64,000 nucleotides of DNA from Neotamlana sedimentorum. GTDB taxonomy: Bacteria > Bacteroidota > Bacteroidia > Flavobacteriales > Flavobacteriaceae. Positions 31,881 to 64,000 of the stretch are shown piece after piece. The notes under the pieces are model-generated. The model worked only from the letters and a program-made list of their open reading frames with translations, was not told where the DNA came from and did no database searches. Numbering within the stretch: position 1 is the stretch's first letter; every line of letters begins with the position of its first letter. Made by a program: the position numbers and the translations under genes. The stretch lies in assembly GCF_000943565.1 (NCBI RefSeq), contig NZ_JTDW01000002.1, positions 1 to 64,000 on the forward strand. Reading direction: 5' to 3'.

Positions 31881-31904
31881 TTTAGTTAATTAATTTTTGT
31901 TGAA

Positions 31905-32243: not shown

Positions 32244-32353
32244 AATTAGTTCTTAAAAATTTTTATTTAGTCTATCAATTTATATAATTAATATGAAATT
32301 TTAAAAAAGATCACACTCAAGATATGAAATATTTAAACAATTATATAAATAAC

Positions 32354-32383
32354 AAAAGATGCCTTAAAATAAGGCATCTTTTT
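32354..32383. terminator. Terminator between amt 2 and P-II
   Basis: AAAAGATGCCTTA (32354-32366) and TAAGGCATCTTTT (32370-32382) form a perfect 13-bp stem with a 3-nt loop, downstream of the second amt gene. Confidence 0.85.
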
Positions 32384-32411
32384 ATGTAAATTATTTAAAG
32401 GGATTATTCTA

Positions 32412-33677
32412 CTATTCTTCGTATTCTCTAACTCTTTTTCCTGGGTAAGCGATAGAACCGTGCTCAGAAATATCAAGACCTTTAATTTCTTCTTCTTCAG
32501 TAACACGTAATCCTAAAGTAGCTTTTAAAATACCTAGTACTATTGCAGATAAAACAATTGCCCATACTGCATAAGCTAGAACACCTATAGCTTGAGAACC
32601 AAGTTGTGCAGCTCCACCACCATTGAATAAACCAATACCAGTATCACCATCTACACCCCAAAGACCAATTACTAAAGTACCCCAAGCACCGCACACACCA
32701 TGTACAGAAACCGCTCCAATAGCATCGTCAATTTTAAGTTTTTTCTCTATAAATTCTATTGAGAATACTACAATTACACCACCTATTAAACCAGCAAGTA
32801 AAGCGCCAACAGCAGTCATATTACCACAACCAGCAGTGATACTAACTAAACCAGCTAAAGCACCATTTAAAGATTGTGCTAAGTTTGGCTTACCATACCA
32901 AATCCAAGTAGTAATCAAAGCACCTAAACCACCTGCAGCAGCAGCTAAGTTTGTAATTAAAACAACAGTTGAAGCTCCAGTAGCATCATCGCCACCCCAA
33001 GCTAATTGAGAACCACCATTAAAACCAAACCATCCTAACCAAAGGATAAATACACCTAAAGTAGCTAATATTTGATTGTGTCCTGGAATAGGCATTACTT
33101 TACCATCTACGTATTTTCCAATTCGTGGTCCTACCATAAATGCAGCTACTAATGCAGCCCATCCACCAACAGAGTGTACAATTGAAGAACCAGCAAAATC
33201 GATAAAACCTAAATTAGTTAACCAACCATCTCCTTGCCATTGCCATCCTCCAGAAATTGGATAAATAACAGCAGTCATTAATACTGAAAAAATGATATAA
33301 GTTGTATATTTTGTTCTACCTGCAATAGCTCCCGATACAATTGTTGCTGCAGTTGCTGCAAACATAGTTTGAAAGAACAAATCGGCACCTTCACCTTGCA
33401 TAAATCCGCCCCAGAAGAACCATCCGTTTGAGGTATCACCATACATTAGAGAGTAACCAATAAGCCAGAAGGTAATTGAACCTACACAAATATCTAAAAA
33501 GTTTTTCATAGCGATATTTACCGCATTTTTAGAACGAGTCATACCAGATTCAACTAATGTAAAGCCAGCTTGCATAAAGAAAACAAGAATACCGGATAGT
33601 AACATCCAAAGCATACCCATATCGCCTTCTACAGCAGCGGTATCTTGAAAAAATAAAGGAATGTTTAACATTGACAT
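32412..33677 (-). CDS. amt: Ammonium transporter Amt (second copy)
   Basis: 421 residues, eleven membrane helices. The pore histidines are in SSIVHSVGGW and AVSVHGVCGAWG, with the signature GVFILWLGWFGFNGGS. It is a paralogue of the gene at 30633, with a shared C-terminal tail motif (EHG..AYP). The N terminus, rich in glutamate and aspartate, is longer. Its own terminator separates it from P-II, so it may be a differently regulated transporter or sensor. The porin-like gene lies upstream. Confidence 0.95.
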   Translation of the reverse strand: MSMLNIPLFFQDTAAVEGDMGMLWMLLSGILVFFMQAGFTLVESGMTRSKNAVNIAMKNFLDICVGSITFWLIGYSLMYGDTSNGWFFWGGFMQGEGADLFFQTMFAATAATIVSGAIAGRTKYTTYIIFSVLMTAVIYPISGGWQWQGDGWLTNLGFIDFAGSSIVHSVGGWAALVAAFMVGPRIGKYVDGKVMPIPGHNQILATLGVFILWLGWFGFNGGSQLAWGGDDATGASTVVLITNLAAAAGGLGALITTWIWYGKPNLAQSLNGALAGLVSITAGCGNMTAVGALLAGLIGGVIVVFSIEFIEKKLKIDDAIGAVSVHGVCGAWGTLVIGLWGVDGDTGIGLFNGGGAAQLGSQAIGVLAYAVWAIVLSAIVLGILKATLGLRVTEEEEIKGLDISEHGSIAYPGKRVREYEE

Positions 33678-41396: not shown

Positions 41397-42671
41397 TTAG
41401 TTTAAAAACTTAGGTTTTATAACTAGCATAGCCCAAGCCCAGTTTTGTCCACCTGCAGCAGCATCTTCTGTAATACCTTTTAAATCGTACATACCATCGG
41501 CAGCAAACATTTGTGAATATCCTGCTACTAAAGCATAACCTTTAAACGCCTTTTTAAAAACAATATCTAACTCTGTACCTAAAGCTTTTTCACCTTCTGT
41601 AATTTCTTGCTCACCGCTAAAGTTTAAAACTTTTACTAATAAGCTAGATCCTTTTCCTAAATTAAAGTTTGCACTAGCATGGATATCTACTAAACCAATT
41701 GAGTTAGCATGATTACCTACATAAAAATAATCCATAAACCCATTAAACTTGTGGTTTGTACCATATAATGGGAAAAATGCACCAGTTTCTCCAGCATCTG
41801 CATCATTACCACTAATAATTTCTACACCAGCACCTAAAGTTACTTTATCTGAAGCTTTAAAAGTTGCATCTAAACTTACATCGTATGCGCCTTTTACAGC
41901 AACTTCATTTTGTCTGTCACCTGTTTGAATATAAGCGTTTGCAGCTAAACCAAGTTTACCAGCTTTATATTTTAAGTGCGTACCAAGTGTTAATAAACTA
42001 CTTGTACCATCTCCTGTTACACCATCATCTTCATATTCTTGAAACCCATTATTCATAAGCAATAAGCTACCTGAAAATTTATCCCAAGCTTTGCTTAAGT
42101 GTAACATTTGCATGGTTTTATAAGAGAAAAAACCTGTTGTGTTATATTCTGTACCAGAAGACACAAACCCTGTTGGATTGCTATAATCTTGATTAAATGC
42201 TAAAGCAAGATCAAGCTTAAAACTATCTTTTGCATACTTAATTAAAGCAGCATCGTGGTTACGCCCTTGTTGCGCCCAATCTAAACCACCAAGTATACGT
42301 TGGTCGTCGTACGATAAAACTTGGCGACCTAATTTAGTAGACCATCCGCCTCCTAATTGCAATTCACCCCAAGCTTGAAAAACACCAAATGAATTATTTT
42401 GGTCGTAAGGTAAAATTTGGCGATTTTCTCCCCAAACCATTACATCTTGTAAACTAATAAATACCTTATATTTTTCAGTTTTAAAACCAGAATTTAATCT
42501 AATTCTTGTTGAAATCCCGTAACCAGGTTCTGCTTCATCTGCAATTAAGCTTCCAAAACCATGACGGTATTCGGTACGTGGTCTAAATTCACCATCTAAG
42601 GTAAATTGTGCATTAGCTACTTGCAAGCAACCTAAAAATAATAGTCCTAGAGTAATTATTTGTTTTTTCAT
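41397..42671 (-). CDS. Outer-membrane channel of the alginate-export-like family
   Basis: 424 residues. The signal peptide ends VANAQ. The mature protein has the pattern FRPRTEYRHGFG, TRIRLNSGFKTEKYKVFISLQDVMVWG, and LGRQVLSYDDQRILGG typical of the alginate_exp-like 16- to 18-strand barrels. It ends VIKPKFLN. In this place, directly downstream of the nitrate ABC transporter in the same direction, it is a likely outer-membrane pore for nitrate or nitrite rather than alginate. The assignment of substrate is inference. Confidence 0.72.
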   Translation of the reverse strand: MKKQIITLGLLFLGCLQVANAQFTLDGEFRPRTEYRHGFGSLIADEAEPGYGISTRIRLNSGFKTEKYKVFISLQDVMVWGENRQILPYDQNNSFGVFQAWGELQLGGGWSTKLGRQVLSYDDQRILGGLDWAQQGRNHDAALIKYAKDSFKLDLALAFNQDYSNPTGFVSSGTEYNTTGFFSYKTMQMLHLSKAWDKFSGSLLLMNNGFQEYEDDGVTGDGTSSLLTLGTHLKYKAGKLGLAANAYIQTGDRQNEVAVKGAYDVSLDATFKASDKVTLGAGVEIISGNDADAGETGAFFPLYGTNHKFNGFMDYFYVGNHANSIGLVDIHASANFNLGKGSSLLVKVLNFSGEQEITEGEKALGTELDIVFKKAFKGYALVAGYSQMFAADGMYDLKGITEDAAAGGQNWAWAMLVIKPKFLN

Positions 42672-42721: not shown

Positions 42722-43540
42722 TTAATGCTCTAAAAAGTCAATTAAATGTTTGCGGTATTTGTAATAATCGTCGTGTTCTAAAACTGCTTTACGTGTTCTT
42801 GGGCGTTCAAAATCAATACTTAAAACATCTCCAATTTTTGCACGAGGACCGCTAGTCATCATTACCACTCTATCGGCAAGGAAAATAGCTTCATCTACAT
42901 CGTGCGTAATCATTACGGCAGTAATTTTTTCTTTATTCCAGATTTCAATTAAAATATCTTGTAATTCGCCACGAGTTAAAGAATCTAGCATTCCAAAAGG
43001 CTCATCTAAAAGCAATACTTTTGGCTTTATAGCAAATGCTCTGGCAATACCAACACGCTGCTGCATACCTTGAGAAAGTTCGCTGGCACGCTTATTAAAA
43101 GCATCTTCTAAACCTACTTTTTGTAAATAATATTTAGCTATATCGTTTCGTTGTGATTTGGTAGCATGAGGAAACACTTGGTTTACACCTAAAAGCACGT
43201 TTTGTAAGGCCGTCATCCAAGGCATTAAACTTGGCGCTTGGAAAATAACACCACGATCTGGACCTGGACCTTTAATATGGTTTCCTAAAACCGAAATATT
43301 ACCACCAGAAATTTCGTTTAAACCTGCTATCATGGAAAGCATAGTTGTTTTACCACATCCTGAATGCCCAATTATAGTAACAAACTCTTCCTTTTTAATT
43401 TGTAGATTTAAGTTTTCTAGCACCACATAATCACCTTTTGGCGTTGGGTAAACTTTCTTTAAATCTTTTAAATCTAGCATCACATCTTCCGAAGGAAAAA
43501 TAATGCCATTTTCTGTTATATTTTGTGTTTGAGTTATCAT
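42722..43540 (-). CDS. Nitrate ABC transporter, ATP-binding protein (1)
   Basis: 272 residues. Walker A is GHSGCGKTTM, the signature LSQGMQQRVG, and Walker B VLLLDEPFGMLD. The family is the nitrate/sulfonate/taurine class (NrtD/SsuB-like); the C-terminal segment matches the nitrate group. It starts 12 bp after the stop of the second ATPase gene (43553), so transcription passes through. It probably dimerises with that partner to power NrtB. Confidence 0.9.
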   Translation of the reverse strand: MITQTQNITENGIIFPSEDVMLDLKDLKKVYPTPKGDYVVLENLNLQIKKEEFVTIIGHSGCGKTTMLSMIAGLNEISGGNISVLGNHIKGPGPDRGVIFQAPSLMPWMTALQNVLLGVNQVFPHATKSQRNDIAKYYLQKVGLEDAFNKRASELSQGMQQRVGIARAFAIKPKVLLLDEPFGMLDSLTRGELQDILIEIWNKEKITAVMITHDVDEAIFLADRVVMMTSGPRAKIGDVLSIDFERPRTRKAVLEHDDYYKYRKHLIDFLEH

Positions 43541-43552
43541 AATTTCAAGGTT

Positions 43553-44398
43553 TTAAAAACGTCCTACAAAGCTTTTTGGTTGTAAATCTGGCAATTCAAT
43601 AGGTGCATTCGCTTCCGCTTTGCGAGAATCTCCTATATCCATTAAATATTCAATAATGGCGTTTCTGGTTTCTTTAAAATTAGCATTATCGTTAAGCTCG
43701 GTTTTGTCGCGAGGTCTTTCAATATCAATTTTAAATTCTGGTCCCAAAGTTGCTTTTGGCCCTGGACGTAACGGAATAATGCGATCTGCCATATAAATAC
43801 CTTCATCTACATCATTTGTAATAAGTAAGGCAGTACGCTTGTTACGGCTCCAAATATTTAAAATTTCGTCTTGTAAATTTCCACGAGTTAAGGCATCAAG
43901 CGCACCTAGCGGTTCATCCATAATAATCATTTCCGGATCCATAGCTAAAGCTCTTGCAACCGATACACGCTGGCGCATACCACCCGACAATTCTTTTGGA
44001 CGTTTATTAATTGCTGGTGTTAAACTTACCATTTCAATATATTCGGCCACCAACTCTTGTAACTCCTTTTTGCTCTTTTTAGGAAAAGCCTCTTTAACCG
44101 CCACATATACATTTTGCCCCACAGTTAACCATGGTAATAAGGAGTAATTCTGAAAAATAACACCACGCTCATGGCTAGTACCTTCAACCTTTTGTCCTTT
44201 AAAAAGCACCTCGCCCGATGTAGGCGTAATAAGTCCGTTAATTAAGTTTACCAAAGTTGTTTTACCACTTCCAGTAAACCCAACAATCGCCACAAACTCA
44301 CCTTCTTCTATGGTTAGGTTTATATTCGATAATACCTCTGAAGCATTATCTCCAGTACCATATGTTTTATTTATATTATTTAATTCTAAATATGCCAT
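43553..44398 (-). CDS. Nitrate ABC transporter, ATP-binding protein (2)
   Basis: 281 residues. Walker A GFTGSGKTTL, signature LSGGMRQRVS, Walker B MIIMDEPLGALD. In cyanobacteria NrtC carries an extra C-terminal binding domain; this protein lacks it and is a simple ATPase. The structured RNA copy B (44413-44528) lies directly upstream of its start, between it and the permease gene. That spacing of 190 bp is unusual inside a transporter operon. Confidence 0.9.
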   Translation of the reverse strand: MAYLELNNINKTYGTGDNASEVLSNINLTIEEGEFVAIVGFTGSGKTTLVNLINGLITPTSGEVLFKGQKVEGTSHERGVIFQNYSLLPWLTVGQNVYVAVKEAFPKKSKKELQELVAEYIEMVSLTPAINKRPKELSGGMRQRVSVARALAMDPEMIIMDEPLGALDALTRGNLQDEILNIWSRNKRTALLITNDVDEGIYMADRIIPLRPGPKATLGPEFKIDIERPRDKTELNDNANFKETRNAIIEYLMDIGDSRKAEANAPIELPDLQPKSFVGRF

Positions 44399-44412
44399 TT
44401 TATTTAAGTTTT

Positions 44413-44528
44413 GGGTGTTCCCTTCCAGGTCGGGCTTTCGGCTATATCTTTTTTATTGGTTCTGGCGTTTCGCTATCGCTGCACACTAGAACTGACATAA
44501 AAAAGGATGCCGCCTCAATCCCTAACAC
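44413..44528 (-). ncRNA. Structured RNA element, copy B
   Basis: Read on the - strand, GTGTT and AACAC close the element (44528-44524 and 44419-44415). Conserved blocks (GGATTGA.GCGGCATCC, AAAAAGATATAGCCGAAAGCC) match copy A at 18769. The closing stem is GTGTT/AACAC here versus GCGTT/AACGC in copy A, a compensatory change. The variable middle hairpin pairs GTTCT with AGAAC. It ends 16 nt before the start of the ATPase gene, almost the same spacing as copy A to its gene. Confidence 0.65.
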
Positions 44529-44588
44529 GAGATTTCTACAAAATTTTAAACTATATTACTAACTATCGGTTTGCAATAAAACCAACAA

Positions 44589-45695
44589 TTAAATTGCGTC
44601 TGTTTTATCGAAGGACACCGTGTTTTGTATAAACAACATCAATCGATCTAACAAGAAACCTATAATACCAATAACAAACATGGCAACTATAATTTTGGCG
44701 TTAGAATCGTTAGCTCCATTTTGAAACTCTTCCCAAACAAATAAACCTAAACCAGGACTTTGTGCTAATAACTCAATAGCAATTAAAACCATCCACGCTA
44801 CAGATAATGTAATTTTTAAACCTGTAAAAATTAATGGTAACGACGATGGTAAAACCACTTTAAATACTTTTTGAAAAGGTCCTAATTTTAAAACCTTTGC
44901 AACATTTATATAATCTTTATCTACCGTAGATACTCCCATTGCTGTATTTACTAAAGTGGCCCACATAGAACACAACCCAACACTAATAAACGAAATGGTA
45001 AACGAGCTATCTTCGCTAGAATCTATAAGTAAAGTTTTAACAATCATGAACACTAATAAATACCAAACTACTGGAGATACAGGCTTAAATATTTGAATAA
45101 ACCAGTTAAAAGCACTTTTTAACGTTGGGCTTAAACCTATAAATATTCCTAAAGGCACTGCAATTAATAAGGCTAAAAAGAAACCGGCAAATACCGTTTT
45201 TAAACTTCTAAAAATTTGATCTACAAACGATGGCCTTCCTGTATAAACTATAGGATCTTTACCTTCTGCAACACGTTTTTCATTTAATGCTGCTGTTTTT
45301 TCCTTAAATGCTAATTTATCTGCTCTAATTAAAAAGTGATCATCTAAAAGCGATTTGTAAGATGCCCAAACCTGTGAAGGTGATGGTAAAGTATTTGGCT
45401 GGCAACTAATATCTCCAGAAGCTATACATGCTTTTAAAGCATCTGCTGCTGCCTGACCTTGTTCGGTTAAAGCTTTTTCAATTTTAAACTCGGCTTCCTT
45501 ATTGTATAACGCTTTTGCTCCTAAATGCCATATTCCTATAAATAAAAATATAGATAAAATTGGAACAATAAATTTCCTTAAAATCTTTAAATAGTCTTGT
45601 TTTCCTAAATTTCCGGAAAATAAATCTTTAAGGGTAGATATAAAACCTAATCCCATAAACTTAGATATTTTATTTAATGTTAAACTTTGACTCAT
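44589..45695 (-). CDS. Nitrate ABC transporter permease (NrtB-like)
   Basis: 368 residues, six predicted membrane helices. Between the first helix (about 42-60) and the rest lies a polar insert of about 100 residues with a cysteine pair in KACIASGDISCQPN. The EAA loop region, LKLGPFQKVFKVVLPSSLPLIFTGLKI, is conserved in the NrtB/SsuC group. It is the inner-membrane pore for nitrate. The insert is larger than in cyanobacterial NrtB and may contact the binding protein. Confidence 0.88.
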   Translation of the reverse strand: MSQSLTLNKISKFMGLGFISTLKDLFSGNLGKQDYLKILRKFIVPILSIFLFIGIWHLGAKALYNKEAEFKIEKALTEQGQAAADALKACIASGDISCQPNTLPSPSQVWASYKSLLDDHFLIRADKLAFKEKTAALNEKRVAEGKDPIVYTGRPSFVDQIFRSLKTVFAGFFLALLIAVPLGIFIGLSPTLKSAFNWFIQIFKPVSPVVWYLLVFMIVKTLLIDSSEDSSFTISFISVGLCSMWATLVNTAMGVSTVDKDYINVAKVLKLGPFQKVFKVVLPSSLPLIFTGLKITLSVAWMVLIAIELLAQSPGLGLFVWEEFQNGANDSNAKIIVAMFVIGIIGFLLDRLMLFIQNTVSFDKTDAI

Positions 45696-45834
45696 GATTA
45701 CTAATTTTATTGGTTTGTGTTTAAGTATAAATATTAAAGATTAAGTGACTATTATAGTTTGTAATTCCTGAAATATTGGAGATAATCCTCATCAGGAATA
45801 ACAAACCAATAAAACCACTTTACTTTTTTACAGC

Positions 45835-47232
45835 TTATTGCACTGCTTTATCTTTATTTCCTATTGAGAAACTGTTTATGTATGCTATTGGATCTTTAGC
45901 ATCATATGTTTTACCATCTATAAAATCTGTTGTTGCTGGCTTATAACCATCTGTTGTTGGCACATCGCTAGCAGGAATATGTCCTTCTTCAACTAAAAGA
46001 TCTGCTGCTTTTTTCCAGATATCTGGTCTGTAAATATCTTTAATAGTTTCTGCATACCATTCTGCTGGTTTTGCTTCTGGAATTTGTCCCCAACGTCTCA
46101 TTTGAGTTAAGAACCAAATACCATCCGAATAGAATGGATATGTTGCATTGTATTTGTAGAATACATTAAAGTCTGGCATTTCGCGCTTATCACCTTTTTC
46201 AAACTCGAAAGTACCTGTCATAGAGTTTGCTAATACCGCTTCGTCTGCACCTACGTATTGAGACATTGATAATATTTTTACGGCTTCAGCTCTGTTTCCT
46301 GGCTCGTCTAACCACTTTCCAGCACGAATTAATGCTTTAGTTACCGCAATTGCAGTGTTAGGATTTTCTTCAACAAACTTTTTTGTCATTACAAACACCT
46401 TTTCTGGGTTGTTTTTCCAGATATCGTAGTTTGTTGTTACCGGCACACCAATACCTTTAAATACAGCTTGTTGGTTCCATGGCTCTCCTACACAATACCC
46501 GTAAATTGTTCCCGCCTCTAAAGTTGCTGGCATTTGTGGTGGTGGTGTTACAGAAAGTAAAACTTCGGCATCAATTTGCCCTTGTACATTTTCAGCAGTA
46601 TACATTCCTGGGTGAATTCCAGCAGCAGCTAACCAATAACGAATTTCGTAGTTGTGTGTGGAAACTGGGAATACCATACCCATTTTAAATGCTTTACCTG
46701 AATTTTTATAATCAGCAATTACTGGCTTTAAAGCTTCGGCTTTTATTGGGTGCACTGGTTTTCCATCTTCTCCTGTTGGTACATTTGGCTTCATTTTGCT
46801 CCAAACATCGTTAGATACTGTAATACCATTACCATTTAAATCCATAGAGAATGGTGTAACTAAATCTGCTTGACGACCAAAACCTGCACCAGCAGCAATT
46901 GGCTGACCTGCTAACATATGCGAACCATCTAATTGTCCATCAATTACACGGTCTAATACGTTTTTCCAGTTCGATTGCGCTTCAACAGAAACAAATAAAC
47001 CTTCATCTTCAAAAAATCCTTTTTCTTTAGCAATGGCTAAAGGCGCCATATCTGTTAATTTAATAAAACCGAATGTTAATTGTGGTTTTTCAATTTCTAA
47101 TGTTTTAGTTTTAGAAGTTTCAGCTACAGCCGCCACTGCTTTTGCCTCTTTTTTAGAATCTTTACCTCCACAGGCAAACATAACTAACGATAGTGCAGCA
47201 AGACTTGTTAATTTAATTAATTGTGATTTCAT
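45835..47232 (-). CDS. Nitrate-binding lipoprotein (NrtA/CmpA-like)
   Basis: 465 residues. The lipobox (LVMFACGG, Cys at 21) anchors it to the membrane. The CmpA/NrtA solute-binding fold is shown by the [20 protein letters not shown] start, [13 protein letters not shown], and GYCVGEPWN, residues known in the family to bind nitrate or bicarbonate. It is the first gene of the transporter operon. A promoter TATATTTG (47281-47288) and a palindromic box (47258-47273) precede it. Specificity for nitrate is inferred from context with nitrate reductase and molybdenum genes. Confidence 0.9.
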
Positions 47233-47257: not shown

Positions 47258-47273
47258 TAAGTATGAATACTTA
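47258..47273. promoter_or_regulatory. Palindromic operator TAAGTA-TGAA-TACTTA
   Basis: Sixteen bases with perfect 6-bp half sites and a 4-bp spacer, 26 bp before the start of the nitrate-binding protein gene. On the - strand a -7 element TATATTTG (47288-47281) lies 7 bp upstream of it, so the box overlaps the expected transcription start. The rest of the 374-bp gap (47233-47606) shows no gene. Confidence 0.72.
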
Positions 47274-47606: not shown

Positions 47607-48305
47607 TTATTTTTTCAACCATTCTTCTTGAGAAAGTGCGCTATATTTTTTATCGGTTCCATACGGATCGACTCCACCTTTTAAATAAGAACTTATAGCT
47701 TTTAATGCTATTGTGTCTTTCATTTTAGAAGCCACTTCGTAACGATGATTTCCATGAAAATCATGACATTGAATACACGTTGTCCATTGCTTTTTAGCGA
47801 TTAAATCTTTATGAGACACATCTAAAGGATCATTTTCTACTGCTAAATCTTGATGACAATTCATACAATAGTTTATTTTATCGAGTGTAATGCGCTCTCC
47901 ATGATGTTCTGAGTGACAGGTTACACAAGTAGTTGCATCTATATTTTGAATTGCATCGCTAAAGCGCGGTTCTGAAAAACGATAAATTGGATGCCTATCG
48001 TTTGGCCTATCATGACACTCTAAACAGTTATTAGCCGTTACGTCCTGTGTTCCAAAATCAACGCCTTTTTCACGAAATCCTAAGGCATGAGATGTGTTAG
48101 ACTGCACTTGTTGCAACAAACTACCCTTTGCATCGGCATGACAAGCATAACAAGATAATGTTTCATGTCCAGTATTCATTGGCCCAATAGAAACATAAGA
48201 CTCGTTAGATTCTAAGGTTAACAAAAAGAAGGCTGCAACACCTACAACCAAACCTATTAAACCCCCTATAACTTGTCTTTTTCTTAACGGACTTACATTA
48301 AACAT
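47607..48305 (-). CDS. Pentaheme c-type cytochrome
   Basis: 232 residues. An N-terminal membrane anchor (about 12-30) is followed by five CxxCH heme sites at 52-56, 94-98, 127-131, 147-151 and 177-181, spaced like the NapC/NirT and multiheme electron-carrier proteins. The rest is His-rich (HHGERIT, HDFHGNHRYE). It faces the periplasm. It ends the four-gene redox set, 13 bp after the FAD reductase gene, and could accept electrons from the diheme cytochrome b. Confidence 0.87.
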   Translation of the reverse strand: MFNVSPLRKRQVIGGLIGLVVGVAAFFLLTLESNESYVSIGPMNTGHETLSCYACHADAKGSLLQQVQSNTSHALGFREKGVDFGTQDVTANNCLECHDRPNDRHPIYRFSEPRFSDAIQNIDATTCVTCHSEHHGERITLDKINYCMNCHQDLAVENDPLDVSHKDLIAKKQWTTCIQCHDFHGNHRYEVASKMKDTIALKAISSYLKGGVDPYGTDKKYSALSQEEWLKK

Positions 48306-48318
48306 GCACTATAATTTT

Positions 48319-49347
48319 TTAAAATTCAATAACCACTTTTTCACTTAATGGATACGATACACAGGTTAAAATATTTCCAGCCGAAACTTCATCCTGTGGC
48401 ATTATATGACCATCTATCATTTTAACTTCACCCTCTACACATTTAGCTTTGCACGTAGAACACATACCCGACCTGCAAGAATATGGCAAAACAACATTAT
48501 CAGACAAGGCTTGCTGAAGTATAGATTTATTCCCTTTAACTTTTAAATCATATTCTTCGCCGTTTAATTTCAAAACCACATCGCTTAGCAAATCCTTTCC
48601 CGTTAATTTTACAGTTGGCGCTTTAAACACCTCGAGTTTAATTTGCTCTCTGGTAATGCCATTTAATTTTAAAATCTCTTTTACTTTTTCCATATAACCA
48701 TTTGGACCACAAATCATGTATTCATAATTACCAAAATCCAAATTATACTTAGTAAAAATTTCATTTACGAGCCCATTAGTAATTTGCCCTTTGTGATACC
48801 CTTCACCACAGGAATCGCAACTAGAAATTATATGCTCTGCATTAAATCTACCTTTATAATTAGCTTTTACTTGTTTAATTTCTTCATGAAAAATAATAGA
48901 GTTTAAATTTCGATTTGCATAAATTAAAAGCACACTAGAATCGTTTTCCTCGGTTAAAACAGATTTAATTATTGAAAACATTGGTGTTACACCACTACCT
49001 CCAGCAAATAACACATACTGTTTTTTATTACTTTTTTCTGGCGATACACAAAAACTTCCTGCAGGATTATCTACATTTAATTTATCGCCAACCTTTAAAT
49101 TATCGTGAACATAATTTGAAACTAAGCCACCCTCAACACGTTTTATAGTAATTTTTAAATCCTTATCGGTATAAGGGTTACTACAAAACGAGTAAGCACG
49201 TTTATGCACTTGCCCGCTTATTGGCACATGTATGGTTAAAAATTGCCCAGGTTTATAACTTAATTTTTTAAAAAAATTTCCGTTTTTAAAAACCACTGTT
49301 AAAGCATCAGGCGTTTCTTTTATAAGTTCTTTTACTACTAATTTCAT
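48319..49347 (-). CDS. FAD/[2Fe-2S] oxidoreductase
   Basis: 342 residues. FAD domain: RAYSFCSNP (50-58). NAD(P) domain: GGSGVTPM (117-124) and CGPNGYM. C-terminal plant-type [2Fe-2S] ferredoxin: Cys291, Cys296, Cys299 and Cys329 in PYSCRSGMCSTCK and ILTC. This is the layout of the flavodoxin/phenol-hydroxylase reductase family. An extra CDSC (177-180) is present. It takes NAD(P)H electrons; the neighbouring diheme membrane cytochrome is the likely acceptor. It starts nine bases after that gene. Confidence 0.9.
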   Translation of the reverse strand: MKLVVKELIKETPDALTVVFKNGNFFKKLSYKPGQFLTIHVPISGQVHKRAYSFCSNPYTDKDLKITIKRVEGGLVSNYVHDNLKVGDKLNVDNPAGSFCVSPEKSNKKQYVLFAGGSGVTPMFSIIKSVLTEENDSSVLLIYANRNLNSIIFHEEIKQVKANYKGRFNAEHIISSCDSCGEGYHKGQITNGLVNEIFTKYNLDFGNYEYMICGPNGYMEKVKEILKLNGITREQIKLEVFKAPTVKLTGKDLLSDVVLKLNGEEYDLKVKGNKSILQQALSDNVVLPYSCRSGMCSTCKAKCVEGEVKMIDGHIMPQDEVSAGNILTCVSYPLSEKVVIEF

Positions 49348-49355
49348 TTAAAATC

Positions 49356-49832
49356 TTATTTATAATAAAACACCATTGTAATATGAAACACCATGAGTAT
49401 GGTTATTATTAAAGAAAGTGCAACATGAGCAATCATCCAACCTTTAAAATAAATTTCTCCGCTTTTCTTAATTACATCTAAATTAAAATACCCCAGTACG
49501 GTATTAGCAAGAAACATATACGACAACAAAAGCAAATACCCGTAGCCTAATCCTATACTGTGCATATAAAACAACAACGGACTAATTGCACCAAGCCACT
49601 TATGAATTTCTTGCATATTAACTGCAAACTTCTTTAATGTTTTAACGGTTCTAACCAACGACAACAACCATTGAAACAACACAAAAACAGCAAGAAGTAA
49701 ACCCGTCCACCTTTTATACATTTCTTGTTGTTGCAACTGAAACAACCACTCCCAATTGAGTTTAAAAAGAAACTGAATAACAAAAGCTAGGAAAAAAATA
49801 ATGCCTAAAATGCTAGTTTTACTTAATGCCAT
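49356..49832 (-). CDS. Diheme membrane cytochrome b, ferric-reductase-like
   Basis: 158 residues with four to five hydrophobic helices. Four histidines, His77, His91, His136 and His150, are arranged as two H-x13-H pairs in two helices (EIHKWLGA...FYMHSIG and IAHVALS...VFHITM). This is the spacing that binds two stacked b hemes in ferric reductases and NADPH oxidases. No flavin domain is present, but the FAD/[2Fe-2S] reductase is coded right after it, so the two could form one split enzyme. The family has no name known to me. Confidence 0.68.
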   Translation of the reverse strand: MALSKTSILGIIFFLAFVIQFLFKLNWEWLFQLQQQEMYKRWTGLLLAVFVLFQWLLSLVRTVKTLKKFAVNMQEIHKWLGAISPLLFYMHSIGLGYGYLLLLSYMFLANTVLGYFNLDVIKKSGEIYFKGWMIAHVALSLIITILMVFHITMVFYYK

Positions 49833-49888
49833 AAAAACGGATTGTAAAAAATGAAATATTACCGAAGTGAATCGAATACTTAATTAAA

Positions 49889-50713
49889 TTATTTTTTATT
49901 TAATGAAACTAAGTGCTTCATCGTTTCGTAAGACGATAATTTTTTCACACTATCTAAAAACACCTCTGCAGTTGGCAAATATTTTCCATCTTGGGGCCAC
50001 TTATCACCAATTTCTGGCTTCTCACTTTCTTTAAAATGCTCAATTTCATCTAAGTATTCCATATAAATATCAACCGTACCTTTTGCGTAAGAATTTAAAA
50101 CCGCAACAGTTTCTTTATAGGTAAGCGAATCTTTAGGGTATTGCCAAGTGGTTGCTCCCATAACATCTCCTAGTTTCCAATCAGATTTTGTTGTTTGCGG
50201 ATGATCGTTATGACAGGTTACACAAGCCCCAGCACTAGCTAAATCGGCAAACATGGCTGTATGCAATTTTTGAGAATCATCATAAAAAAATTGAGGTTCT
50301 TGATCTTTTTTTATCTGTTCGAACAACTCAGCTTGCTTACCTTCAAACTTATTTGCCGCATTTACGGGGTGGTCAGACCCCAAGTACAAGCCTAAAGGCA
50401 CAGGGCCGCGTTTAATACTTGTAGCAACACCACGTAAAAACAAAGCTGGCAATGGCCCCGCTTCAACTTTGTCTTTTCGCCAATCTTCGTCAAATTTCAT
50501 GCCTTGCAATTTCCCTTTACCAACAATAGCTTTAGTATAAAGTGTACGTGTTACGTCGTTTTCTTTAGACACCATTTCTAACACTTCTTCAACCGAAAAA
50601 ACATTTTCTTCTCCTTGTAATTCAGCTTTTTCCTCAGGAACACCACCACATGCCACAACTATTAATGAAGCTAATAATGGATATGTAAATTTTAGTTTAT
50701 AAAAAGTTTTCAT
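49889..50713 (-). CDS. DUF3365 lipoprotein with one heme c site
   Basis: 274 residues. Lipobox with Cys22 (VVACGG). A single heme site, CVTCH at 164-168, is followed by NDHP. The surrounding sequence, LYTKAIVGKGKLQG and LYLGSDHPVNAANKF, matches DUF3365 (Tll0287-like) heme sensors. These bind gases or redox-sense in the periplasm. It lies between the globin gene (33 bp) and the diheme cytochrome gene (57 bp), all in the same direction. Confidence 0.82.
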   Translation of the reverse strand: MKTFYKLKFTYPLLASLIVVACGGVPEEKAELQGEENVFSVEEVLEMVSKENDVTRTLYTKAIVGKGKLQGMKFDEDWRKDKVEAGPLPALFLRGVATSIKRGPVPLGLYLGSDHPVNAANKFEGKQAELFEQIKKDQEPQFFYDDSQKLHTAMFADLASAGACVTCHNDHPQTTKSDWKLGDVMGATTWQYPKDSLTYKETVAVLNSYAKGTVDIYMEYLDEIEHFKESEKPEIGDKWPQDGKYLPTAEVFLDSVKKLSSYETMKHLVSLNKK

Positions 50714-50745
50714 TGTATTAATTTTTAGTTTATCGAATGTTTTTT

Positions 50746-51159
50746 TTAGTAAGATGCTTTAATCATAACATCTGCCATTGTACCGTAAACAGCTGCCCAA
50801 GCATCTTTTACCTCTGGTGTAAAATCGTCTCCAAGACCAGCTTCTAGAGTACCAAGCAATGCCGCTCCAACGGTATTATAGTGGCTAGCTTCAACCTTAT
50901 ACCCAACATGACGTTTACCTAAATCTTGTAATACAGGGATTAGCGCATCCAGATTACTCAACCCAGCAACCGCAGCACCCAACATAGTCATTAACTTATT
51001 ACCTTGCTCTTTCATAACACCCTCGTCGTTAGGGAATAATGATTTTAAACCAGGATCTAATTCAAAAAGTTTAGTATAAAAAATGTCGGCTGCGGTAGAT
51101 GCAATGGGTTTTACTTTTTCGAATGACGTTTGTACAAGTGTTACTGTTTTTTGTTCCAT
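50746..51159 (-). CDS. Single-domain globin
   Basis: 137 residues, all globin, with no reductase domain. Proximal His84 is in LGKRHVGYKV; Tyr28 (B10) is in ADIFYTKLF and Gln52 (E7) in EQGNKL. The Tyr/Gln pair is that of NO-dioxygenating flavohemoglobins and the Campylobacter Cgb type. It probably turns NO into nitrate in the cytoplasm, protecting against NO from nitrite reduction. The palindromic box at 51192 lies upstream of it. The next gene in the direction of transcription is the DUF3365 lipoprotein. Confidence 0.92.
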   Translation of the reverse strand: MEQKTVTLVQTSFEKVKPIASTAADIFYTKLFELDPGLKSLFPNDEGVMKEQGNKLMTMLGAAVAGLSNLDALIPVLQDLGKRHVGYKVEASHYNTVGAALLGTLEAGLGDDFTPEVKDAWAAVYGTMADVMIKASY

Positions 51160-51191: not shown

Positions 51192-51207
51192 TAAGTATTA
51201 ATACTTA
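51192..51207. promoter_or_regulatory. Palindromic operator TAAGTA-TTAA-TACTTA
   Basis: Perfect palindrome; it extends by one base on each side (51191-51208). It is 33 bp before the globin start, and a -7 element TAAATTTG lies 10 bp upstream on the - strand (51225-51218). The half sites equal those at 47258 and 52193. Confidence 0.75.
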
Positions 51208-51403: not shown

Positions 51404-52165
51404 TTAACTATCTAAGTAGAAATTATGTTCGCTAATTTCATTTTTTAAACCTTGAATATCGTTTATAGCAATTTTTTTTCCGCTAGTAGAAATTAATTTT
51501 TCACTTTTTAATGCCGAAAAAACTCTAATAACTTGCTCTTCGGTAGTTCCAGCATGATCGGCATATTCTTTTCGATTTAGTATAACGTCTAAATACCCTT
51601 TATTCACACCAAATTTTCTGTAAATATATAACAAAGTATCTATAACCCTTTCTCTTACCGTCATTTGTGAAATAGATTTAACTTTAGATTCACTTCTATT
51701 GAGCTCATCGGCATAAAACATCATAAAATCGTAGGCAAATTTTGCATCAGATAATAATGCCTCTTGCAAAAGCGATTTTGAAAAATAACACAGCATCGTA
51801 GTTTCTATTGCAATGGCACCTATAGAATAAAACTCTTCTGTACCAAACCCACGATGACCAATTATCTCTCCTTCGGTAGCAAACCTAACAATTTGCTCCT
51901 TACCATTTATTCCCGTTCTAAACACCTTTACTTTACCATCTAAAACAAAAAACAGGCCATTAACCGAAGCGCCTTCAATAACAAATTGCTGTCCTTTTTT
52001 GCATCGTAAAGTATTCTTACTACTTAAAAAAGCTTCGTTTATAGAACTTAAATTCTTCTTTATTAAGCAATTATAATTTTCACATGAAACACAACCTACA
52101 TTCAAAGATGCTTTTTTTCTATTTAAAGATGAATAGTTCGGCATTATGGAGGTTACTTCATTCAA
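51404..52165 (-). CDS. FNR-like transcriptional regulator
   Basis: 253 residues. N-terminal cysteines Cys25, Cys28, Cys33 (VGCVSCENYNCLI) plus Cys55 resemble an Fe-S-binding cluster of FNR-type sensors. The cNMP-like barrel (about 56-165) includes FVLDGKVKVFRTGINGKEQ; the winged helix includes NRKEYADHAGTTEEQVIRVFSALKSE. A second ATG at codon 8 is possible. It lies within the nitrate island, divergent to moeA, with a palindromic box 28 bp before its start. It is the best candidate to bind the TAAGTA-N4-TACTTA boxes and to respond to NO or oxygen. Confidence 0.85.
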   Translation of the reverse strand: MNEVTSIMPNYSSLNRKKASLNVGCVSCENYNCLIKKNLSSINEAFLSSKNTLRCKKGQQFVIEGASVNGLFFVLDGKVKVFRTGINGKEQIVRFATEGEIIGHRGFGTEEFYSIGAIAIETTMLCYFSKSLLQEALLSDAKFAYDFMMFYADELNRSESKVKSISQMTVRERVIDTLLYIYRKFGVNKGYLDVILNRKEYADHAGTTEEQVIRVFSALKSEKLISTSGKKIAINDIQGLKNEISEHNFYLDS

Positions 52166-52192: not shown

Positions 52193-52208
52193 TAAGTAAA
52201 AATACTTA
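52193..52208. promoter_or_regulatory. Palindromic operator TAAGTA-AAAA-TACTTA
   Basis: Third copy with perfect 6-bp half sites, 28 bp upstream of the FNR-like gene and 170 bp from moeA. On the - strand the -7 element TACTTTTG overlaps its end by two bases. The position fits autoregulation. Confidence 0.72.
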
Positions 52209-57080: not shown

Positions 57081-57446
57081 ATGGTATACCAATTTTTATT
57101 TGAAAAATTAAATGTTTGGATAGATCCCAAAGAGCTAGTTAAACTAACATATTTAGTTACAAAAGAATTTCCTATTGAAGAAAAATACGGACTAACTAAC
57201 CAGCTACGAAGAGCATCCATTTCAGTAGCTTCAAACTTAGCTGAAGGCACTTCAAGAAACACTAATAAAGATAAAGCTCATTTTACAACATTATCGTTTA
57301 GCTCATTAATGGAGGTATTAAACCAAATCATAATAGCAAAGGAACTAGGCTTTTTAAATGAAAATAATTATCAAAAAACAAGAACACAAATTGAAAATAT
57401 TTCAAATAAATTAAATGCATTACGCAAAGTACAGTTAAACAAATAA
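57081..57446 (+). CDS. Four-helix-bundle protein (S23 family)
   Basis: 121 residues with the family pattern WIDPKELVKLTYLVTKEFP, YGLTNQLRRASISVASNLAE and TSRNTNKD. These small bundles occur in rRNA intervening sequences and scattered in Bacteroidota genomes; their function is unknown. Here it is inserted within the cofactor operon, between moaE and moaCB, with ordinary spacing and codon use. There is no 23S rRNA near. It may be a guest gene or a late addition. Confidence 0.88.
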   Translation: MVYQFLFEKLNVWIDPKELVKLTYLVTKEFPIEEKYGLTNQLRRASISVASNLAEGTSRNTNKDKAHFTTLSFSSLMEVLNQIIIAKELGFLNENNYQKTRTQIENISNKLNALRKVQLNK

Positions 57447-59543: not shown

Positions 59544-60977
59544 TTAAACTTTATTTATTAACACTTTTTTCTCGAAACTAGATTTTGACGCCTCGCATAA
59601 CGAACAATGATAAGTTTCTGGCAAGACCTCGAAACTAGTATTTGGTGCAATATTTTGTGTAATATCGCCATATACTTTATTGTAAACTGTTAAACATTCG
59701 GTACATTGATAAACTTCTTCCTCTAAAGTTTCAGAAACTACTAATTTGGTTTTCGTATCGGTGCTTTCATTTCCTAAATTTTCAAAATACAGCTTACTTA
59801 ATTCCATTAATAACCCAGGAAGCTCAACCATATCTACATCTTGAACATGTACTATATATTCTCTTGTATTAGGGTCGAAATTTTTAGCGTAAAGCAAATT
59901 ATAAGTATCTCGAATTATAAAATCCTCAACTGTTTCTGGCGCTTTATTTTTTTCTATAACTATAGACGTGAAATTATAGGTTGTACTATCAAAATTGGTT
60001 ATACCAAAAGTTAAACCATAAGTACTAATATCATTTTGATCGAAATTAGTTACTAAGTATTTTTTTAAGTTTAAAGCATCTTTATCGTTTACCGGAATAT
60101 GCCAATTCATTTCTAACATAGAGTGGCGTACATTTATACCAAACTTCCCTAAAAACTTTTCCCATTGTAATTTAGATTCTGCAGGAATACCCTTTACAAT
60201 AAAACTTTTCCATGGGGTAATAGATATTTTTCCAATTTTATTTTCTGCACAAATTTCACAAAGTGACTTTAAAAATTTAATATCGTAGCGGTTGTTACGC
60301 CAATACAAACCCAACCAATATTTATCACCAATTCGGTTCATGCCTTCATAATAAGGAAAAGGGTAAAATGGCACTTCAAGTGGCTTATCAACAGTTCTAT
60401 TATTTGTATCAACAGCATCACTAACGAGCTGAAAAATGGTTTCCACATTTTCCGGTTCCTCTTGCAGTACTTGCTCAATAGCCAATTCTATTTTATCCAT
60501 ATCCCAACTATATATTAAGGCAGGGTACATTTGTGTTTTTTTCCAACCAGGTAAGCGCACATATAAATACCAATAATCTTGATGATGTGATGCTACAAAA
60601 TTTATATTACCTGTAAACAACGGCACCAAACGCTGTTTAGGGTCAGCAACATTTACGCGTAATTTTAAATTGTGTTTAAACTGCTCTATGATGTACAAAT
60701 ACCTATCACTTGTAAGCCATGAAGTACTTGGCAAAATATCAGCAGAAACATAAGACGACGATAAATTTTCTACACTATCTCGCTTTGGTTTAACAAAGGT
60801 AATTTTATCAAATTTATTAAATTTACTTTCATCTATTTCTTCTGGGAAAATAATATCTTGTCTCGAGCCAAACGAAATAGCATCCAACCCAAGATACTCT
60901 GCAGCTTCACAAATATATTTTAATTCTCCTGGTGACAATACACCACCGTTAATTCGTAATCTGTATGGCTCTATCAT
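59544..60977 (-). CDS. Nitrite/sulfite-reductase-like protein with rubredoxin tail
   Basis: 477 residues. The body has nitrite/sulfite reductase ferredoxin-like half domains: LRINGGVLSPGELKYICEAA at the N terminus and a second half near KDALNLKKYLVTNF. The four-cysteine siroheme-[4Fe-4S] site is absent. From about 425 on is a rubredoxin domain with YQCTECLTVYNKVYGD and YHCSLCEASKSSF. The stop codon of the nitrate reductase overlaps its ATG by one base. It may pass electrons to nitrate reductase. No enzymatic activity can be predicted. Confidence 0.75.
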   Translation of the reverse strand: MIEPYRLRINGGVLSPGELKYICEAAEYLGLDAISFGSRQDIIFPEEIDESKFNKFDKITFVKPKRDSVENLSSSYVSADILPSTSWLTSDRYLYIIEQFKHNLKLRVNVADPKQRLVPLFTGNINFVASHHQDYWYLYVRLPGWKKTQMYPALIYSWDMDKIELAIEQVLQEEPENVETIFQLVSDAVDTNNRTVDKPLEVPFYPFPYYEGMNRIGDKYWLGLYWRNNRYDIKFLKSLCEICAENKIGKISITPWKSFIVKGIPAESKLQWEKFLGKFGINVRHSMLEMNWHIPVNDKDALNLKKYLVTNFDQNDISTYGLTFGITNFDSTTYNFTSIVIEKNKAPETVEDFIIRDTYNLLYAKNFDPNTREYIVHVQDVDMVELPGLLMELSKLYFENLGNESTDTKTKLVVSETLEEEVYQCTECLTVYNKVYGDITQNIAPNTSFEVLPETYHCSLCEASKSSFEKKVLINKV

Positions 60978-63900
60978 TATGCTAATACTTTAGAATTATT
61001 AAGAATTTCTCTTACTTCGGTTTTGCAACTACCACAACCTAAGCCAGCTCCTGTAGAATTGCATAGTGCGGTAAAATCGGCACACCCACCACGAATAGCT
61101 TCTTGAATGTTACCCACACCTACTTGACTACAAGAACACACCAATTCACCTTTAACAGGCTCTGTATTAGATGCGCCACGAAGCAAAGTGTCTCGTTTTT
61201 CGGCCATTTCAATCTTACTTTCAATCATCGATTTAAATTCGGCAAACTCATTTTTATCTCCCATTAAAACTGCTCCAATTAATAAATCGTTTTTAACTAT
61301 ACATTTTTTATAGTAACGCTTTTTTATATCGGTAAAAATTATTTCCTCATAGCTTTCATCATTTTCTGGCACTTTAATTTCTCCTATACTACAAAGATTT
61401 AAATCGTTAAATTTTAAAATATTCATAAGTACCGATCCATTGTAAGACGACCCTAAATCTCCTGCAATAAAATTGGCTAAAATATTAGCTTGCTCTTCTG
61501 CAGCCGAAGTTATCCCGAAAAGCTGATTGTTATATTCTGCAATTTCACCAATTGCAAAAATATCTGGATTAGACGATTGTAAATGCTGATTTACTTTAAC
61601 ACCTCTTCCGCATAAAATACCATTTTCTCTAGCAATTTCAACATTTGGAATGGTACCAATAGCATAAACAATAGCATTTGCTGTTAAAAATTTACCACTT
61701 TTTAAGGTAATATTTAATTCACCCGTATCCTCATCATCAAAAACCGTACTTACCTCATTATCAAAATAAACCTGTATGCCACGTTCCTGCACATCTAATG
61801 ACAATAATTTGCTTGAAATACTATCTAACTGGCGCTCCATTAATCTTGAGGCGCGTTGAATAATAGTGATTTTAGCGTTTTTATGTTTCATTGCTGCTGC
61901 AAGCTCTAAACCAAGTAAACCTCCGCCAACAATTACCACATGTTGCTCTTCTGGCGGTAAGCCTGTAGCCTCTAAATAAGCTTTAAAATCATCTGCATCT
62001 TTTTTATTACGCATAGTAAATCGCCCTGGCAAATCTATTTGAACATCGCGAGGCACAAAGGCACGACTACCTGTTGCTAAAATAAGTTTATCAAAATTAT
62101 GCTTCTCTTTATTACTATCTATTACGTATTTTTCTTTCTGGTTTATTTCGATTATAAACGTTTCAGGATGCACGTTAATATCTAATTTAGAAAGTTCTAA
62201 TTTCTTGATTTTAAGCAATTGTTCCCAACTTAATTCATCGGTTACATATTCTGGAAGCAACACACGATTGTAAAATAAATTAGGCTCTTTTGAAAACACA
62301 TGAATATCGTCTACTTCATTTAATTCACGATAATTTTGCACAAACCTAAATGCAGCAGCTCCAGCTCCAACAATTATAATTTTATCTTTTGGCTTTTTAT
62401 ATTTTACAACTTTAACACGAGTGTACTTAAAATCAGGTTCTTTTGAAACTGGATCTATAACCGTATGCGTTAAATTATTAGCTCGATTTAAAGTGTTTTG
62501 CAATTGTTTACCCCAATGCATAGGCAGAAAAACCACACCTTTTGCTATATTTTTAGTAACCTTTGCTCTTACACGAACCTCTCCATTTTCGCTGGTTATT
62601 TGAGTAATATCACCGTCTTTTATATTATTTAAATATGCATCGACAGGGTTAATTTCCAAAACTGGTTTTGGGTAATGTGTTTTTAATCGTGCTACCTTAC
62701 CGGTTTTAGTCATGGTATGCCATTGGTCGCGCACACGACCAGTAGTAAGTACTAAAGGAAAATTATCGTTTGGCTTTACTGCCGTATTTTCTATTGATGA
62801 AGGCACATTAAAAATTGCCTTTTTTGATGGTGTATAAAACACCTTATCTTCAAACAAACGTGGTGTTCCTGGATGTCTATATTCTGGAACTGGCCATTGA
62901 AAAGTACCTTCAGTTTTTAAACGATCGTAATTAAGAAAAGACACATCTATATTTGTGCCTTTTGTCATACTACAATACTCATCGTAAATTTCTTCCGTAC
63001 TGTTATAATTAAAACCTCTGAACCCCATACGTTGTGCAAAATCGCAGAAAATTTCAACATCTGGTCTGGCCTCACCGGGTGCTTGAATTTCTTTTGGTAA
63101 GTATGAAATTCGGCGTTCGGAATTCGTCATTGTCCCTTCTTTTTCCAACCAACCAGCAGCTGGAAGAAGTAAATCGGCATATTCTGTAGTATCTGATTTA
63201 TGAGATATATCTTGTACCACAACAAACTTAGCGCTTGCCATAGCTTTTTCTATTTTATGCGAATTAGGTAAACTAACCGAAGGGTTTGTACATGCAATCC
63301 AGATGGCTTTTAATTTACCAGACTCTAAAGCATCAAACATTTGGGTTGCCGTTAATCCGGGGTTAGGTGAAATTTCTTCTACACCCCAAAACTGAGCGAC
63401 TTCTCGACGATGTTCTGCATTAGCCAAGTCTTTATGAACAGCTAACAAATTTGCCATTCCACCAACTTCTCGCCCGCCCATGGCGTTAGGCTGACCCGTT
63501 AATGAAAATGGACCTGCTCCTGGCTTACCAACATTTCCTGTAATTAACGAAAGATTTAAGAGTGATACATTTTTATCGGTTCCTACAACGCTTTGGTTAA
63601 GCCCCATTGCCCACATGCTAATAAAACCTTTCGAAAGCCCTATTACATCGGCAACCTTACGAATGCTTTTTTCGGGAACACCACAAAGTTTAGAAGCTTG
63701 TTTAACCGAAGTTTTAAAAATGAGTTCTTTATAAGCTGTAAAACCATCGGTGTAATTGTTTATAAAATTCTCATCTATTAAACCGCGTTCGTATATACAA
63801 CGTGCAATAGCATTGTAAAGAATAATATCGGTTCCTGGAATGAGTTGTAAATGAATATCTGCAAAATTTGCCGAATCGGTTTTTCGCGGATCGACAACAA

Positions 63901-64000
63901 TAATTTTAACGTTCGGGTTTTCTTCTTTACGTTTTTCTATTCTTCTAAATAAAATAGGATGACACCAAGCTGGGTTTGCACCAGTAATTAAAAAACAATC
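60977..64000 (-). CDS. Assimilatory nitrate reductase fused to NirB-type FAD module (partial)
   Basis: Partial: the frame stays open to the window edge, 1007 residues visible, 5' end missing. The N-terminal part is NasA-like bis-MGD reductase: GANPAWCHP, VVDPRKTDSANFADIHL, PGTDIILYN, FISMWAMGLNQS, GPFSLTGQPNAMGGREVGG. A NirB-like FAD/NAD domain follows (IIIVGAGAAAFRF, HVVIVGGGLLGLELAAA, IFAIGEIAEY). The C terminus is a BFD-type [2Fe-2S] domain with CSC and CGSC. A Met at 63616 is internal, not the start. It reduces nitrate to nitrite in the cytosol. Confidence 0.9.
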   Translation of the reverse strand, partial: DCFLITGANPAWCHPILFRRIEKRKEENPNVKIIVVDPRKTDSANFADIHLQLIPGTDIILYNAIARCIYERGLIDENFINNYTDGFTAYKELIFKTSVKQASKLCGVPEKSIRKVADVIGLSKGFISMWAMGLNQSVVGTDKNVSLLNLSLITGNVGKPGAGPFSLTGQPNAMGGREVGGMANLLAVHKDLANAEHRREVAQFWGVEEISPNPGLTATQMFDALESGKLKAIWIACTNPSVSLPNSHKIEKAMASAKFVVVQDISHKSDTTEYADLLLPAAGWLEKEGTMTNSERRISYLPKEIQAPGEARPDVEIFCDFAQRMGFRGFNYNSTEEIYDEYCSMTKGTNIDVSFLNYDRLKTEGTFQWPVPEYRHPGTPRLFEDKVFYTPSKKAIFNVPSSIENTAVKPNDNFPLVLTTGRVRDQWHTMTKTGKVARLKTHYPKPVLEINPVDAYLNNIKDGDITQITSENGEVRVRAKVTKNIAKGVVFLPMHWGKQLQNTLNRANNLTHTVIDPVSKEPDFKYTRVKVVKYKKPKDKIIIVGAGAAAFRFVQNYRELNEVDDIHVFSKEPNLFYNRVLLPEYVTDELSWEQLLKIKKLELSKLDINVHPETFIIEINQKEKYVIDSNKEKHNFDKLILATGSRAFVPRDVQIDLPGRFTMRNKKDADDFKAYLEATGLPPEEQHVVIVGGGLLGLELAAAMKHKNAKITIIQRASRLMERQLDSISSKLLSLDVQERGIQVYFDNEVSTVFDDEDTGELNITLKSGKFLTANAIVYAIGTIPNVEIARENGILCGRGVKVNQHLQSSNPDIFAIGEIAEYNNQLFGITSAAEEQANILANFIAGDLGSSYNGSVLMNILKFNDLNLCSIGEIKVPENDESYEEIIFTDIKKRYYKKCIVKNDLLIGAVLMGDKNEFAEFKSMIESKIEMAEKRDTLLRGASNTEPVKGELVCSCSQVGVGNIQEAIRGGCADFTALCNSTGAGLGCGSCKTEVREILNNSKVLA

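Follow-up and report, generated by a model that had tools for sequence, protein, structure and literature searches.

The nearest working analogue of the system described here is MsrQ (YedZ)/Fre, in which a separate cytosolic flavin reductase and a membrane b-heme protein deliver electrons to a periplasmic protein; it offers a precedent for a split NOX-type enzyme, and SpNOX can itself reduce cytochrome c (PMC5676040). To describe a possible relative of these systems, we analysed a 64,000-nt stretch of the Neotamlana sedimentorum genome (contig NZ_JTDW01000002.1, positions 1 to 64,000; hereafter the window), in which five minus-strand open reading frames (ORFs) fill positions 47607-51159. In transcription order they encode a globin, a Tll0287/DUF3365 protein, a 158-aa membrane protein (termed FR158), a reductase and a pentaheme cytochrome (Table 1). 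We propose that the block specifies a membrane-spanning exporter of electrons from NAD(P)H to cytochrome c and a co-transcribed globin, which together would dispose of nitric oxide (NO) or related N-oxides arising from nitrate assimilation. Read from sequence, this proposal as a whole has in our judgement an even chance of being correct: the membrane electron exporter is likely, and the NO or N-oxide purpose is about evenly balanced.

Comparison with described systems places the locus close to several of them and within none. The block resembles MsrQ/Fre in its split arrangement but lacks MsrP and has a pentaheme c cytochrome on its acceptor side, together with a DUF3365 lipoprotein; moreover, its reductase carries a C-terminal [2Fe-2S] domain, and neither cut-off nor fold search identifies FR158 as a ferric-reductase domain. 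With SpNOX it has in common two His-x12/14-His heme pairs and an FAD/NAD(P)H dehydrogenase, but it is split into genes, its FAD motif is RAYS rather than of the NOX H-P-F-T type, and it possesses a dedicated multiheme acceptor. The globin has the Tyr B10 and Gln E7 of Hmp, VHb, Cgb and HGbI, and a CRP/FNR-family regulator accompanies it, as in Cgb/NssR (PMC1274295); in contrast to Hmp and the single-domain globins, it is a protein distinct from the reductase and is linked with a membrane cytochrome complex. The DUF3365 protein shares the CxxCH motif and Tll0287 fold of the heme-c Cache proteins of its family but has no axial Cys, is a lipoprotein and lies within an electron-transfer operon. 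The reductase has the identical FAD-NAD-[2Fe-2S] layout of PaaE/Hcr, yet it falls below both equivalog cut-offs, and no paa or hcp genes were seen nearby. The parts thus each belong to or resemble known families, and their combination appears undescribed: no published description of the operon was found in the open-access literature on DUF3365/Tll0287, pentaheme cytochromes, MsrQ-like systems, flavobacterial nitrate assimilation or globins.

The five genes behave as a unit, with one gene order shared by roughly a hundred marine bacteria. The original prediction, made from the window sequence alone, had them running in one direction, as they do, at spacings of 33, 57, 9 and 13 bp; the measured gaps are 32, 56, 8 and 13 bp. 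FR158, which is 96% identical to its Tamlana laminarinivorans counterpart, occurs in 31 of the 399 Flavobacteriaceae genomes sampled, a 32nd match (genome G628) being stop-riddled and discarded as a chance match. A second survey, of 84,980 species genomes, returned 88 loci, 80 of which were kept. The globin-DUF3365-FR158-reductase-pentaheme order is exact in 78 of the 80 named Flavobacteriaceae loci; of the other two, one is a short contig and one (L143) is a complete locus with the same order but no globin. Because this order is kept over some 20 genera, the set cannot be attributed to chance, and the predicted conservation of gene order survived its check. Flanking genes vary by genus (molybdenum-cofactor genes, a nap cluster, nrfHA-ccsBA, narK, sirohaem synthesis) around a constant interior, and named isolates carrying the operon include Tamlana, Zobellia, Maribacter, Aquimarina and Flammeovirga. 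In the Aquimarina loci (L139-L158), cytochrome c maturation genes of the CcsBA type stand directly downstream of the pentaheme gene.

Searches with an FR158 profile against 345 genomes of the phylum and with a DUF3365 profile against 395 genomes of the class gave no further convincing copy outside the family. A search of plasmid records recovered the Flammeovirga copy (Flammeovirga kamogawensis p1, Cytophagales): all five genes in identical order, at 60, 53, 47, 39 and 49% identity, from which it follows that the unit is old or mobile and able to stand alone. This block (L204:8702-13868) lies directly behind hemA (glutamyl-tRNA reductase), which suggests that heme supply is tied to it, and transposase genes lie just downstream.

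The best evidence for a functional connection within the block is a natural gene fusion. In the most divergent relative (G521, locus L062), reductase and pentaheme form a single 571-aa ORF, with the reductase at residues 1-340, a hydrophobic segment at about 350-372 (a predicted membrane helix) and then the pentaheme domain. Pfam recognises FAD_binding_6, NAD_binding_1 and Fer2 in its N-terminal part and, more weakly, cytochrome c3 and paired-CXXCH domains in its C-terminal part; the DUF3365 and FR158 genes follow in that order, overlapping or nearly touching. Because it joins a cytosolic dehydrogenase to a periplasmic pentaheme, the fusion is strong evidence that the two proteins are partners in one predicted NAD(P)H-to-periplasm electron-transfer complex, and it suggests their topology too; FR158 would be the obvious membrane heme bridge between them. 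The split NAD(P)H-to-heme-b path proposed for the block is strengthened accordingly by this arrangement in nature. Other genomes have reductase ORFs of 501, 617 and 779 aa; these fusions are unrelated, carry no heme c and were set aside.

The individual proteins are consistent with such a path. The reductase gene was expected to follow the gene of the 158-aa protein and to encode an FAD/[2Fe-2S] enzyme; it is always adjacent to FR158, 8 bp downstream in the window, and its three Pfam domains (Table 1) bear out the assignment. Its score against TIGR02160 (PaaE) is 264 bits, below the 421-bit cut-off, and it carries the NAD(P)H motif GGSGVTP as well as the FAD motif RAYS. In the pentaheme, five CxxCH motifs are invariant in 81/81 sequences, as are six candidate distal His, and an N-terminal hydrophobic anchor is visible in its sequence. 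As the conserved His suffice for all-bis-His coordination, we infer an electron relay rather than a catalyst; by TIGR03153 (NrfH) it falls outside the NrfH/NapC quinol dehydrogenase class (16 bits, cut-off 134). The two H-x13-H pairs foreseen in FR158 are H77-x13-H91 and H136-x13-H150, all four His being present in 81/81 sequences, so that their expected conservation also stood. The pairs lie in predicted helices 64-91 and 126-156 (model mean pLDDT 87). Since Lys/Arg-rich loops precede both helices, the positive-inside rule would put H77 and H136 on the cytosolic side of the modelled protein and H91 and H150 on the periplasmic side. Weak PF01794 matches occur in 25 of 29 orthologues (best E 4e-5), and FR158 probably works like a ferric-reductase family protein.

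The block also shares a candidate regulatory site with nitrate genes, as had been claimed for a palindromic box. The box TAAGTA-N4-TACTTA (TAAGTANNNNTACTTA) has four exact copies in the 3.96-Mb genome: three stand upstream of the globin, nrtA and regulator genes and the fourth lies inside a coding ORF, while one-mismatch boxes precede the nasC fusion and nirB. Among orthologous upstream regions, those of the globin contain a box within one mismatch in 66/77 cases, those of nrtA in 56/59 and those of the regulator in 34/61, compared to 0/77 control stretches inside the globin gene. Exact boxes number 3 to 7 per genome in ten relatives, against 0 to 4 for a reversed control, and fall mainly in the nitrate cluster, narK included; those outside it are mostly intragenic or before unrelated genes, with one preceding a PilJ-like protein. 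From these upstream sites, the block seems to be switched on together with the nitrate-uptake genes. The adjoining regulator has a C-x2-C-x4-C motif and two further Cys, all five invariant in 29/29 orthologues, and this pattern, combined with the 5-4-5 palindrome AAGTA-N4-TACTT, marks it as FNR-type. Given cysteines in the FNR pattern, it is probably an O2/NO-responsive Fe-S protein, and because the genes adjoin and the palindrome is 5-4-5, TAAGTA-N4-TACTTA is its putative binding site.

The distribution of the box bears on the idea that the complex is a periplasmic ferric reductase, whose Fe(III) reduction would feed iron-rich nitrate enzymes (NasC, NirB, GOGAT), the globin being incidental. 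FR158 does weakly resemble ferric reductase domains, multiheme c proteins readily reduce iron, and nitrate assimilation is iron-demanding; but the box is concentrated at nitrate genes, with no iron-uptake gene under it among the inspected sites, and both the Tll0287 subunit and the globin would be left unexplained. We consider this explanation improbable.

Co-occurrence was assessed in 80 Flavobacteriaceae genomes, 31 with the module and 49 without. NrtA is present in 31/31 module genomes and 3/49 others (Fisher p 4e-19) and NirB in 31/31 and 7/49 (Fisher p 9e-16), values that ignore kinship and so overstate independence; NrfA is present in 18/31 and 8/49, and the window genome has none. The module thus goes along with ABC-transporter-based assimilation of nitrate and, judged by gene content, is an accessory of assimilatory (NrtABCD, NasC, NirBD) rather than dissimilatory nitrate use. 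The same NrfA counts led us to reject a dissimilatory Nap or Nrf partner as a general rule, and they tell against the notion that the block bypasses quinol and feeds electrons to NapAB or NrfA, that is, to a nitrate or nitrite reductase of the periplasm. Its neighbours in many relatives are indeed nap genes (as in L038) or nrfHA-ccsBA genes (as in L055), but those clusters have their own NapG/NrfD or NrfH donors, and such a supply role is in our view decidedly improbable.

The NO-dioxygenase Tyr/Gln pair ascribed to the globin was recovered throughout, Tyr28 (B10), Gln52 (E7) and His84 (F8) being conserved in 79/79 sequences. Among solved structures the globin comes closest to Hell's Gate globin I (3s1i/3ubc) and Vitreoscilla Hb, and on its residues the protein is probably an NO dioxygenase that destroys nitric oxide. 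Of 38 nitrate-assimilating genomes, only 2 have a true Hmp that scores above the cut-off. One alternative is a split flavohemoglobin, in which the reductase would serve the globin as an NO dioxygenase while the membrane and cytochrome genes perform a separate function from a common promoter. The FAD/NAD part of the reductase resembles Hmp and the globin its globin domain, although against NF009805 the two score 139 and 83 bits, respectively, short of the cut-off of 432 for the flavohemoglobin class; furthermore, a globin and a ferredoxin reductase share one operon in Legionella (PMC3820574). However, the reductase forms one protein with the pentaheme in L062, is retained without a globin in L143 and sits between FR158 and pentaheme throughout. 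As it accompanies the cytochromes even in a locus that has no globin, it is not simply the globin's partner, and a split flavohemoglobin, although the foremost of the alternatives, is unlikely. The globin is instead a separable partner of the proposed electron-transfer complex. G521 lacks a VHb-like globin and has, in its nrt cluster between a sirohaem gene and nrtA, a truncated globin with a one-mismatch box; because of this substitution, a globin of whatever type seems to be wanted in the regulon.

The DUF3365 protein matches PF11845 (Tll0287-like, formerly named DUF3365) at 33.1 bits (cut-off 24.1, E 9e-8), and the first fold match of its AlphaFold model is Tll0287 (5b82, probability 0.99, E 0.0099). 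CxxCH is present in 81/81 sequences. Its only conserved cysteines are lipobox Cys22 and those of CxxCH, hence the axial Cys of Tll0287 is absent. This ligand occurs in Tll0287 and the P. putida type but not in all family members. A DUF3365 domain that lacks it and is fused to signalling parts binds NO with sensor-like slow release, at an off-rate of 6e-4 per second (PMC12889525). These kinetics, along with a PilJ-type kinase and NarL-like regulator in the same cluster, favour the notion of a redox or NO sensor, in which NO on the Tll0287 heme would alter electron flow and inform the FNR-type regulator or a NarX-like kinase. None of the five proteins, however, has a signalling domain, and a reductase with about eight hemes would be excessive for sensing alone, making a pure sensor very improbable. 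Catalysis is a separate matter: DUF3365 is unlikely to be a catalytic NO reductase, and with it we doubt that the block forms a novel periplasmic reductase of NO (or nitrite) driven by NAD(P)H and composed of a catalytic DUF3365 heme c, a split b-heme wire and a pentaheme relay. Were that so, its pairing with a cytosolic NO dioxygenase would allow one operon to clear NO on both sides of the membrane.

In the electron exporter that we favour, NAD(P)H would reduce FAD and [2Fe-2S] in the cytosol, and electrons would pass to the inner heme b of FR158 (H77/H136), to its outer heme b (H91/H150), through the bis-His pentaheme relay and by way of the Tll0287-type heme to a final acceptor, which may be NO, nitrite, Fe(III) or O2. 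The NO-binding precedent of DUF3365, the globin residues and a regulon that makes nitrite suggest NO as acceptor or ligand, and the Tll0287-type heme, without an axial Cys, could bind it. In air, the globin would oxidise NO in the cytosol, yielding nitrate for the same regulon to re-assimilate; at low O2, the periplasmic branch would either reduce NO or sense it and throttle electron flow. If true, aerobic marine Bacteroidota would possess a dedicated NAD(P)H electron route over the inner membrane to c-type cytochromes, DUF3365, a large family of heme-c proteins whose physiology is just coming to light, would gain a defined electron donor, and for bacteria mostly without flavohemoglobin, assimilating nitrate would carry the routine cost of handling NO.

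Several observations weigh against this proposal. For FR158, the score against Ferric_reduct (PF01794) is 15.3 bits (cut-off 28), a profile search of the PDB gave no match, and a fold search returned nothing at E <= 0.001, its listed matches including no NOX, the latter a weak test given a shallow-alignment model. Because the Pfam cut-off and the fold test failed, FR158 is not filed as a ferric-reductase family member; of the heme scaffold of ferric reductases and NOX originally ascribed to it, the His pairs on two helices stand and the family and fold assignment does not. The reductase-pentaheme fusion is known from one genome only. Stand-alone DUF3365 domains have been assigned redox roles, the NO binder in that work being a fused sensor (PMC12889525). 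NrtABCD and the same FNR-type regulator occur without FR158 in three genomes, so that the module is accessory and not essential for nitrate use. Finally, no annotated nitrate gene occurs in roughly 50 kb of the Flammeovirga replicon around the block, and two Flavobacterium loci are without nitrate genes nearby. Of the nitrate setting in the original prediction, the link to nitrate genes is retained, as one to assimilatory and not respiratory use, and the block is not confined to nitrate loci. A strict exclusion with the NarK permease, hinted at by three module-less genomes, was also rejected, as loci of Maribacter, Zobellia, Polaribacter and Aquimarina have both.

Table 1 Features of the five-gene block and its surroundings in the window
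Feature	Position	Strand	Basis or remark
Single-domain globin, 137 aa, encoded first in the operon	50746..51159	-	PF00042, 8e-20
Tll0287/DUF3365-type heme-c (Cache-fold) lipoprotein, 274 aa	49889..50713	-	PF11845, fold 5b82
FR158, 158-aa membrane protein, ~5 transmembrane helices, candidate di-heme b	49356..49832	-	Four His, weak PF01794
Cytosolic FAD/NAD(P)H/[2Fe-2S] reductase, PaaE/Hcr-like, 342 aa	48319..49347	-	PF00970, PF00175, PF00111
Membrane-anchored pentaheme c cytochrome, 232 aa	47607..48305	-	Pfam cytochrome c3/c7, five CxxCH
FNR/CRP-family regulator, Fe-S sensor type, probable operon regulator	51404..52165	-	PF00027 + PF13545
NrtA-type nitrate-binding protein, next operon	45835..47232	-	PF13379
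NrtB-type permease and two NrtC/D-type ATPases, nitrate ABC transporter	42722..45695	-	TIGR01183, TIGR01184
Palindromic box TAAGTATTAATACTTA	51192..51207		32 bp upstream of globin
Same palindromic box, upstream of nrtA	47258..47273		Exact copy
Same palindromic box, upstream of FNR-type regulator gene	52193..52208		Exact copy

In the window, the regulator gene lies upstream of the block and the NrtABCD-type nitrate ABC transporter (42722-47232) downstream. Last in the nrt operon is an Alginate_exp-like outer-membrane protein (41397-42671), a possible outer-membrane nitrate porin whose gene is beside nrtD in relatives too. Beyond the regulator follow molybdenum-cofactor genes, a NasC-NirB-like fusion, the PilJ-type histidine kinase with its NarL-like regulator, NirD and NirB. 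The fusion (60977-64000, its gene continuing on the contig to 64498) spans 1173 aa and joins the assimilatory nitrate reductase NasC to a NirB-like NAD(P)H/FAD module and a Cys-rich C-terminus; a long ORF of this kind is also found in the module-bearing genomes. A 477-aa protein (59544-60977), which contains NIR_SIR_ferr half domains and, C-terminally, a rubredoxin domain, adjoins it, as it does in most loci showing both. The PilJ-domain kinase and NarL-like regulator, encoded between nasC and nirD (L159:5234-7780), are likely a nitrate/nitrite two-component system. Elsewhere, a PII gene is flanked by two ammonium transporter genes (30633-33677), which a beta-barrel porin (BBP2) gene and a glutamate synthase gene adjoin, and a TIGR02436 four-helix-bundle protein is encoded at 57081-57446, between moaE and moaCB of the molybdenum-cofactor operon.

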